Both the position numbers and the translations under genes were made by a program. Of a DNA stretch of 36,289 nucleotides, positions 17,840-27,217 are shown one piece after another (the first letter of the stretch is position 1; the number at the start of each line of letters is the position of its first letter). Below the pieces are notes generated by a model. That model searched no databases and was not told where the DNA came from. It saw nothing but the letters and a program-made list of their open reading frames with translations. This DNA comes from Candidatus Altimarinota bacterium. Its GTDB lineage: Bacteria; Patescibacteriota; Gracilibacteria; BD1-5; UBA2023. The DNA is taken from positions 1 through 36,289 of the forward strand of contig JANJWP010000006.1 in assembly GCA_024709505.1 (NCBI GenBank). Direction: 5' to 3'.

Positions 17840-17884
17840 AATACCGCCGTCTCGGCAAAAACCAATTTCACGAAGGAGAATCCC

Positions 17885-18628
17885 ATGAAACTCGGCCTCA
17901 AGATCCTCGGGGTCGCGGCGGGATTCTTCCTGCTCGGCTTCCTTTGGTCGGAATACGCAAATGCCGTGTTCGTCTGGCAATCGGAACTTCCGCCGGCACT
18001 CAGAACGGCTGCCGCATTCGGAATCGGTACCGTGCTTTGGCACGCGACAGGATTCGATGACGCGATACTTTTCGCCCGAAACCTTTCCCTCTCAAAAACC
18101 CGGAGGGGGGCGATTCTCTCCCATCTCGGACTCTACGCTTCGGTCGCCGTGATGCTCGCTATCGTTTACATGAGCGGAAACCTCGTGGCCGATACCGTGC
18201 GCCAATTCCGGTGGATCATCGTCTTGGCCCTATGTTATGTCGCTTGGGAAACCTTCCCGAACGGACATTGGCTGAAAGGAGGGATTCTTGGATTCTTCGG
18301 CAAGATTTCCGAAGAAGGCGAACCGTCCGAATCAGGATCCCTCGAAAGGTTTCTCGGACGCTTCCGGTCGTGGGCGGCATATCCGTTCGTCTTGCAGTTC
18401 GCGACGTTCACGGCGAATTCTTCGGACGATTACGTGGCCAATGCCGCCGCGATGGTCGTGCTCACCGAAGATGCCGCGAAGGGCGCCCTGCTGGCGGGAG
18501 TGTTCTTCGGAGCCGCATCGATGGCTTGGCTCGTCCACCGCTATCACGAAAAAATCATTCCCAAGGATGTTCCGGCCCTCCGGGCTTGGATATTCCTCGG
18601 AGTCGCGACGGCCATCGCCGTCGCTTGA
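17885..18628 (+). CDS. Multispanning membrane protein with paired acidic helix motifs, ending in TGA
   Basis: The 247-residue protein has about six to seven membrane helices and two related acidic motifs within or next to helices: HATGFDDAILFARN (residue 54 on) and TANSSDDYVANAA (residue 178 on). Such inverted acidic pairs occur in transporters of the LysE, TerC and CadD type, so an ion or small-molecule exporter is possible but unproven. Unlike its neighbours it has a good Shine-Dalgarno site, and its only in-frame stop before a terminator is TGA (18626-18628). Read as Gly, the frame would run through the terminator hairpin and out of phase across much of the next gene to TAA near 19234, which is implausible. 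Confidence 0.75.
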   Translation: MKLGLKILGVAAGFFLLGFLWSEYANAVFVWQSELPPALRTAAAFGIGTVLWHATGFDDAILFARNLSLSKTRRGAILSHLGLYASVAVMLAIVYMSGNLVADTVRQFRWIIVLALCYVAWETFPNGHWLKGGILGFFGKISEEGEPSESGSLERFLGRFRSWAAYPFVLQFATFTANSSDDYVANAAAMVVLTEDAAKGALLAGVFFGAASMAWLVHRYHEKIIPKDVPALRAWIFLGVATAIAVA

Positions 18629-18655
18629 CCCCTCCTTCGGGAGGGGTTTTCTTTT
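18629..18655 (+). terminator. Intrinsic terminator abutting a TGA codon
   Basis: CCCCTCC-TTCG-GGAGGGG (18629-18646) with a stable tetraloop is followed by TTTTCTTTT. The stem begins at the base after the TGA of the 17885 gene. Confidence 0.88.
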
Positions 18656-18755
18656 CGGAGGCGAAGTTTTCGGGCGCATTTTACGCGAAAACGCAAGCCG
18701 AAAAGTTGAACCGCCGGAAAATGTGCGATAGCATGGGAAGGAACCCACGAAAACT

Positions 18756-19739
18756 ATGTCGAAAGCCGACAAAATACTCGACGCCGAAGCGCGAAGCGAT
18801 TGGGCGGGAAAAATAGAAGATCGGGTGGAAGAGCTCTCGGGCCTGCGGTCGATTCTCGATCCCGAAACGAAAACCATGACGCTTTCGAGCATCAGGCACT
18901 TCATTTTGGGGGAAGATCCGGCAACGAGAAAGATGCTCGGACAAGTCGATCTCTTTTTGAAGGGCGAACTCAACCGCGCCGAAAAAGGAACCGAAAGGAG
19001 GTTGGCCGCCCTATTTTACGCCGTAGTCACGAAGACCCGGCTTTTTCCGGTGGAAACTCCGGAAATGCGCCGGCTTTTCCGGCTTTTCATCGAAGAAATG
19101 GACAGCCAACTTTCCCTCGTTACCCGAGTTCCGACGATGAACGAATTTTTTCGGGAAGCGGGAAAAAGCGGCCTGTTTTCGCAATTGAGACGACTGAAAG
19201 ATTCCATCGAATTCCGATTGAAAATCCTCGATAACAAAGTTCGGGTCAATCAAATGCGGGCATTCCTTTTTCTTTGCGAATATTACGTCCATTTCCTTGA
19301 GCGGGCCTACAAGGAACTTTCGATGTCGGAACGCGTTCTCGAACTCTACGTCGTTCGGATGGACATCCGGAAAATCCACTTCTTCTTCGAACGCAAGTTC
19401 GGAGCGTGGTTCGGATTCACGTTTTTCCGAAGCATTTCGGCTTACGGAACGAGTTTCGGACGGCTCGCGGTAACCTGTTTGCTCTCCACCATCCTTTTTG
19501 GAAGCGTGTACTGGATGGCCGACTTCTTCGCTCCCGCGAACGTTCGGATGATCGCCGACCTCGGCGATTATTCGAGCTATCTGTTCAACTCGCTCGTAAC
19601 CATCTCCGGACTCGGTATCGACGCAAGCCCGCAAACGGCTCTCCAGCGCTTCGCCATGGGAGTGAACACCGTATATGGAATGGTTGTTTTCGGAATGCTC
19701 TTCAACGTGATCTCTACGAAGCTCTCGATGAACAATTAG
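18756..19739 (+). CDS. Two-helix ion-channel-like membrane protein
   Basis: The protein has 327 residues. A long soluble helical N-terminal region (about 230 residues) precedes two membrane helices (LAVTCLLSTILFGSVYWMA near residue 245, and VYGMVVFGMLFNVI at the end). Between them lies a pore-loop-like segment with NSLVTISGLGIDASPQT. This is the layout of two-helix potassium channels, whose filter is TVGYG; here the loop reads TISGLGI, so ion choice cannot be inferred. The weak GGAAGG upstream may aid initiation. No UGA; it ends in TAG. The soluble part could be a sensor or tethering domain. Confidence 0.7.
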   Translation: MSKADKILDAEARSDWAGKIEDRVEELSGLRSILDPETKTMTLSSIRHFILGEDPATRKMLGQVDLFLKGELNRAEKGTERRLAALFYAVVTKTRLFPVETPEMRRLFRLFIEEMDSQLSLVTRVPTMNEFFREAGKSGLFSQLRRLKDSIEFRLKILDNKVRVNQMRAFLFLCEYYVHFLERAYKELSMSERVLELYVVRMDIRKIHFFFERKFGAWFGFTFFRSISAYGTSFGRLAVTCLLSTILFGSVYWMADFFAPANVRMIADLGDYSSYLFNSLVTISGLGIDASPQTALQRFAMGVNTVYGMVVFGMLFNVISTKLSMNN

Positions 19740-26748: not shown

Positions 26749-26784
26749 AATATGGGATTCTCACTGAAAGGGAGGGCTTAACCC

Positions 26785-27141
26785 ATGGAAGCCGCAACGA
26801 AACACGTCGCCATATTCGCGGAAGGTCGGATGAAGGCCTTCGGACTGCTCATGGAAGAGGAGGGAGAAATCCAAACCATTCTCCATACAATCCCTCCGAT
26901 ACTCCTTGCGGAAATCGCTCGGGAATCGGACGGGAATCCGAAGGTTCGCTACTGCCTCGACGCCTCCTGCGATCCGTTTTCGGCCGAAGTTTCCGTTCTC
27001 GTCGTCTTTGAAAATCCGACGACGGTAATCCACGTGCTTGGCATGGATTTGGATGACGAAGACGAGGTCGTCGCCGTCGGAGTTCTCGAATGGGATTCCA
27101 TTCAGTTCGCCGAAATCGACGAATCCAGTCTCATCGCCTGA
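26785..27141 (+). CDS. Small acidic protein of unknown function, ending in TGA
   Basis: The 118-residue soluble protein is strongly acidic in its C-terminal half (GMDLDDEDEVVAVGVLEWD) and has beta-strand-like stretches (VSVLVVFENPTTVIHVL). No family is recognised. It has its own strong promoter, a Shine-Dalgarno site and a terminator. Its stop is TGA at 27139-27141; reading it as Gly continues without TAA or TAG through the terminator at 27190-27217 and into sequence antisense to the next gene. It thus behaves like the 17885 gene and unlike the UGA-containing genes around it. Confidence 0.75.
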   Translation: MEAATKHVAIFAEGRMKAFGLLMEEEGEIQTILHTIPPILLAEIARESDGNPKVRYCLDASCDPFSAEVSVLVVFENPTTVIHVLGMDLDDEDEVVAVGVLEWDSIQFAEIDESSLIA

Positions 27142-27189: not shown

Positions 27190-27217
27190 ATCCCCCGCCT
27201 CGGCGGGGGATTTTCTT
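27190..27217. terminator. Intrinsic terminator between convergent genes
   Basis: ATCCCCCGCC (27190-27199) pairs with 27202-27211 around a tiny loop, followed by TTTTCTT. It serves the 26785 gene and may also act on the convergent TIM-barrel gene. A weaker hairpin GGACCAT/ATGGTCC lies just upstream. Confidence 0.8.

Follow-up and report, generated by a model that had tools for sequence, protein, structure and literature searches.

The window, that is, the whole stretch of DNA analysed (36,289 nucleotides), is the complete contig C10 of the genome under study (G000; 1.17 Mb, 98% complete). It carries a gene starting at position 17885, whose product is a hydrophobic, apparently polytopic membrane protein and whose frame holds 22 GGN glycine codons and 0 internal TGA (Table 1). 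As an earlier note on this DNA had claimed, the gene is closed by TGA at a strong hairpin, with the refinement that the stem already takes in the G and the A of the TGA itself. The terminator hairpin, GACCCCTCC-TTCG-GGAGGGGTT, occupies positions 18627-18648, starts at the G of the TGA with a G-U and an A-U pair, continues as a G-C stem from the following base and is directly followed by TTCTTTT; folding of 18600-18656 gave a z of -5.7. From the gene end to the hairpin, none of the frames contains a TAA or TAG, the nearest one on the forward strand lying near 18727 (read by eye); in frame with the gene, a UAA/UAG first appears 202 codons past the TGA. When TGA is read as Gly according to genetic code 25, the frame stays open to 19234 and runs out of phase into the gene at 18756-19739, which also agrees with the earlier claim. 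Since this downstream gene is syntenic in G001, a sister species, and in G008, of another genus, the 17885 locus is common to several genera. 17885 is not a singleton in the window, where the gene at 26785-27138 also ends in TGA before a terminator.

Table 1. Features of the two TGA-ended genes of the window and of their surroundings.
Feature	Position	Strand	Remarks
Shine-Dalgarno AAGGAG	17873..17878	+	6 nt before ATG 17885; read directly
ORF 17885, polytopic membrane protein, 247 aa	17885..18625	+	TGFDD and N-x-x-DD motifs; fast-evolving, family-restricted
Hairpin GCGACGGC-CATC-GCCGTCGC	18605..18624	+	Within last codons of 17885; fold
TGA closing the 17885 ORF	18626..18628	+	In-frame UAA/UAG absent until 19232
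Intrinsic terminator, 9-bp stem GACCCCTCC/GGAGGGGTT, UUCG loop, then TTCTTTTC	18627..18656	+	Fold
Downstream gene	18756..19739	+	Syntenic in G001 (85% identity) and G008
Shine-Dalgarno GGAGGG	26771..26776	+	8 nt before ATG 26785
Second TGA-ended gene, 118 aa, end SLIA-TGA	26785..27141	+	TGA 27139-27141; no internal TGA
Terminator of 26785, ATCCCCCGCC-TCGG-CGGGGGAT TTTCTT	27190..27216	+	No in-frame UAA/UAG ahead of it

Searches of Pfam and NCBIfam returned no match and no name for the 17885 family, and an AlphaFold prediction based on three sequences reached a pLDDT of 43. 17885 and its orthologues (L002-L004 and L049) present two DD motifs (WYATGIDD...NCLDDI) and adjoin a conserved membrane gene. 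A weak likeness to small metal transporters was noticed for one member (GDT1, E 0.12).

The assignment of UGA to glycine in G000, already proposed in the earlier note, was verified. Among the internal TGAs of G000 aligned with the sister species, 185/223 face Gly, and a tRNA with anticodon UCA has the Gly acceptor pattern (G1:C72, C2:G71, G3:C70 and U73), according to the rule given in PMC8629427. This tRNA-Gly(UCA) gene (L106:521-599, minus strand) sits beside a tRNA-Gly(GCC) gene and is labelled SeC by ARAGORN, a label that pipelines may propagate as an error. Only one RF-1-domain protein was detected in G000, of RF1 type and with PET as its PxT motif, and prfB (RF2) was not found, TIGR00020 scoring below its cut-off in all 13 genomes searched. 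The RF1 gene itself (L041; G000:C26:28890-29216, minus strand) has an in-frame UGA at a Gly adjoining GGQ (RAS[UGA]AGGQ), meaning that RF1 can be made only if UGA is translated as Gly; in relatives, UGA occurs at varying Gly positions of RF1. As to rescue systems, for which tmRNA and ArfA had been the suggested candidates, a tmRNA gene is present (tag APSFAFAA, with a UAG stop), while no ArfB-type hydrolase was identified in G000 by Pfam. UGA accounts for 5.8% of Gly codons in the genome, and its share drops from 10% to 2.9% as codon bias rises in a 666-kb sample of G000, so that UGA-Gly behaves as if it were a costly codon.

The same sample (57% of the genome), on which the codon model was trained, was used to look for further genes with TGA ends. 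Codon statistics, combined with inspection, served to call gene ends, and the change-point scan was run on non-overlapping genes, its all-frame version being swamped by shadow frames. Scans and inspection together yielded at least 13 TGA-ended genes, including 17885, the window gene 26785, pyrF (TIGR02127), pyrE (TIGR00336), a beta-CASP RNase, a chemoreceptor-like protein, a DapD homologue (with matches below equivalog cut-offs) and two related “WILPEA” proteins, E2-like in appearance. Most have a terminator 3' of the end; pyrF and the E2-like genes are operon-internal and lack one. From the opposite direction, 40 genes ahead of strong terminators in G000 end in TAA or TAG and nine in neither, an apparent TGA end being found in eight of these nine. 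Coding signal is absent after the TGA, where either the terminator or the SD-ATG of the next gene starts. The beta-CASP gene has another TGA 11 codons beyond its end, which, in view of the G001 orthologue, was not counted as part of it. A test for coding drop-off after each codon (5/192 for TGA versus 0.6% for all codons) was judged too strict to use.

Two additional features characterize this class. The first is the Shine-Dalgarno (SD) sequence, whose clarity at 17885 and rarity in the window had been pointed out from the start: strong SD sequences are scarce in G000, a match of 5 or more nt being present in 42/477 genes, and nearly all TGA-ended genes carry one. When only automatically called TGA-ended genes are considered, the excess amounts to 6/10 versus 36/467 in the others (Fisher p 5e-5). 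SD sequences defined by a 5-nt match alone are not associated with a lowering of internal UGA, and the SD claim is therefore based on the strong-SD list together with the TGA-ended genes. The second feature is the lack of clear internal TGAs in 12 TGA-ended genes of G000, versus ~15 predicted at matched codon bias (hand sum). Within the genome, pyrFE is placed ~8 kb from RF1 on contig C26. The spread of the class among relatives is patchy: with G000 included, the DapD homologue was detected in 3/40 genomes (one a weak match), L028 in 2/40 and pyrE in 7/40. A DapD homologue from a different family (L109; G034:C11) shares 51% identity, has a GC content of 36% and ends in TGA, with a TAA ten codons later. 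The related “WILPEA” genes, possibly E2-like, occur in two islands (L057:12566-16005, minus strand, and L039:8661-10587) with TGA AAGGAG ATG couplings; the first also contains a ThiF/E1-like gene, weakly similar to an anti-phage cap2_3 protein, and the two islands possibly represent a mobile ubiquitin-like system.

The 17885 family was found in 5/27 genomes of the same taxonomic family (G000 included) and in no further genome of a 380-genome sample of the phylum. The comparison of end codons among orthologues, recommended in the earlier note, gave TGA in four of the five and TAA in one (G017), with no UAA/UAG ahead of the hairpin in 3/5 and 0 internal TGA in 5/5. The divergent orthologue of G008 (L004) ends in TGA abutting a hairpin, that of G040 has its TGA five codons ahead of the terminator with no in-frame UAA/UAG, and the syntenic orthologue of G001 has TGA, two codons and then a TAA within the base of the stem. 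The contigs carrying the G008 and G040 genes contain many UGA-Gly codons outside these genes and hence do not represent standard-code contamination. These data leave very little probability to an error of sequencing or assembly, to a one-off mutation from TAA to TGA or to contamination by standard-code contigs. The assembly does consist of 33 contigs with 0.8% estimated contamination, but the pattern recurs in at least 13 genes (at least 12 besides 17885) and two species, the 17885 family extends over three genera, and the contigs that carry these genes also hold UGA-Gly genes, with syntenic genes as neighbours, as with pyrFE near RF1 on C26. For the class, sequencing error and contamination were rejected on the recurrence in genes and species.

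A 408 kb sample of G001 (about 45% of its genome) contains the same class, with 5/20 SD genes ending in TGA and terminators adjoining those inspected. In pyrE, TGA is the end in both species and the terminator leaves no stop in either, and in the beta-CASP gene TGA is at the same codon in both (PVYL-TGA and RVYL-TGA). In other pairs, TGA is exchanged with TAA, either at the same codon (KLGLLQI-TAA in L028 and KLALLQI-TGA in L160) or as seen in L025/L148 (TAA versus TGA) and pyrF (TGA in G000, TAA in G001). Another 151 G000/G001 pairs end in TAA or TAG in both species. The difference at 4-fold sites is 45-59% in the five better-aligned pairs, 82% in L025/L148 and 49% in controls, indicating that on this measure the TGA-ended pairs are as old as the species split; pyrFE has, in addition, the same gene order in G000 and G001. 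The argument for long retention draws on six orthologue pairs, and vertical descent is backed by synteny for pyrFE and 17885 only. Across the six pairs there are 304 Gly codons and 0 UGA, where the genome mean predicts 12.7. In controls matched for Gly number and codon bias, the chance of zero UGA was 0.23, 0.28, 0.56, 0.56, 0.21 and 0/14 for the individual pairs, giving a joint probability below ~3e-4 with the last one bounded at 1 in 15.

It could be argued that highly expressed genes simply avoid the rare UGA-Gly codon and that their C-termini run past the TGA, nothing ending there. The fall of the UGA share with rising codon bias goes in that direction, but the explanation is improbable: UGA would still be expected in these genes from bias-matched controls, the sequence after the TGA is unconserved and without coding signal, being occupied by the terminator or the next SD-ATG, and orthologues have TAA at the same codon. 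No conserved sequence was found 3' of the TGA in the orthologue pairs compared, and a conserved C-terminal extension, named at the outset as one outcome that would speak against a TGA end, was rejected on this ground.

The preferred explanation, which is given about an even chance on the strength of these sequence comparisons, is that the 17885 class would comprise standard-code genes, probably imported, in which UGA is a true end, either kept or swapped with UAA. The class is SD-led, consists largely of single-gene units that each have a terminator, and obeys the standard code in a genome where UGA means Gly; its donors would probably have been standard-code, SD-using bacteria. Such an import would explain the SD sequences, the stops and the patchiness, and to this extent the donor envisaged in the earlier note stands at the level of the class, with its SD-led genes, its lack of internal TGA and its patchy distribution among relatives. 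The transfer cannot be called recent for the genes common to the sister species, whose 4-fold divergence equals or exceeds the genome norm and whose pyrFE share the same locus. Recency alone is in fact insufficient, as the shared genes keep TGA ends and gain no internal UGA while other genes turn UGA over freely. The UGA end would have been kept or exchanged with UAA during the diversification of the genus, and its retention over that period suggests that it works well enough as an end. Mechanistically, enough ribosomes would release at UGA, via RF1 or another factor, and those inserting Gly instead would go on for about nine codons until the 3' end generated by the terminator, where they would be freed by tmRNA. 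Against this explanation stand an RF1 with the usual PET motif and no obvious sequence change that would permit UGA reading, the lack of a second release factor in a 98%-complete genome, and the tRNA-Gly(UCA), which reads hundreds of internal UGAs and from which strong competition is thus expected at a terminal UGA. The codon usage of the class is, moreover, host-like, which counts against a foreign origin, and plasmids, phages, viral contigs, the 380 phylum genomes and a scan of genome contigs yielded no donor.

A serious rival, although somewhat unlikely, is that imported standard-code genes have their UGA read as Gly throughout, giving non-stop mRNAs on which ribosomes come to a halt at the 3' end left by the terminator, to be rescued by tmRNA. 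The product would be a protein with a short tail plus the tag, partly lost, and this loss would be tolerated. The absence of RF2, the presence of tmRNA with its tag and UAG stop, and the lack of UAA/UAG ahead of the hairpin in three of the five 17885 orthologues and in the pyrE of both species are all in agreement with such read-through, and the SD sequences and patchiness indicate import here too. However, one G-to-A change per gene would suffice to restore a stop, and yet TGA stays in pyrE and the beta-CASP gene of both species, kept over a synonymous divergence typical of the genome and with clear protein constraint. In addition, the operon-internal pyrF and E2-like genes would extend far into the next gene, and no C-terminal tail is conserved. 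Because full read-through would strongly favour that one G-to-A change in pyrE, UGA in these genes is taken to retain at least part of its role as an end, tmRNA serving as the backstop.

The abutting terminator recalls another possibility, that of a deliberate non-stop switch. In arfA and brfA, terminators yield non-stop mRNA (PMC6881298), and the protein accumulates only if trans-translation fails because the terminator has removed the stop. As in these genes, an intrinsic terminator precedes any usable stop of 17885, and in G000, G008 and G040 it abuts or closely trails the end with no UAA/UAG ahead. Nevertheless, ArfA and BrfA are rescue factors that require RF2, which is absent here, whereas 17885 encodes a membrane protein and its class holds ordinary enzymes (pyrE and the DapD homologue) and operon-internal members without terminators (pyrF and the E2-like genes). 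The G017 orthologue is, furthermore, TAA-ended and that of G001 has TAA two codons on. A switch of this kind thus has a low probability.

Taken to its full extent, the preferred explanation leads to a UGA codon with two meanings in a bacterium devoid of RF2, namely Gly in most genes and stop in the SD-led class, maintained by selection across species. This stronger proposal is regarded as possible but doubtful. It would need UGA release by RF1 or another factor, and the evolutionary pattern of the six pairs, with 0 UGA in 304 Gly codons, is consistent with it.

A codon that apparently acts as sense inside genes and as an end at 3' ends is a feature of Condylostoma-type codes. G000 would resemble them in this respect, with the differences that it is bacterial and known from sequence alone, and that proximity to the 3' end cannot explain UGA ends internal to operons. 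Context-dependent stops of Condylostoma and similar eukaryotes are mentioned in a survey of genetic codes that describes its own method as blind to context-dependent stops (PMC8629427). In its tRNA-Gly(UCA), its RF1 without prfB and its internal UGA at Gly positions, G000 conforms to NCBI genetic code 25 of Gracilibacteria and Absconditabacteria. As described, however, code 25 excludes UGA-ended genes, of which G000 has at least 13 chromosomal ones in 57% of its genome, and no report of such genes in code-25 bacteria was found in the literature searched. A parallel is offered by the code-11-compatible phages of Gracilibacteria, in which UGA stops are backed by nearby stops (mBio 2023, PMC10746230). 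Like the G000 class, these phages lack in-frame TGA and use mixed stops within a host that reads UGA as Gly, but the class is made of host metabolic and membrane genes with no nearby UAA/UAG before the terminator. No match of 17885 was found in phages, plasmids or viral contigs.

Stop-codon reassignment is taken as complete once RF2 is lost, and the UGA-ended genes shared by sister species bear on that view. Either termination at UGA survives the loss of RF2, or bacteria can live with ordinary enzymes being expressed from non-stop mRNAs. Both outcomes matter for the way in which codes change and genes pass across code boundaries. In practical terms, gene callers set to code 25 fuse or overextend these TGA-ended genes. 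That several of the genes are shared with a sister species makes the question of how their proteins are finished directly testable.
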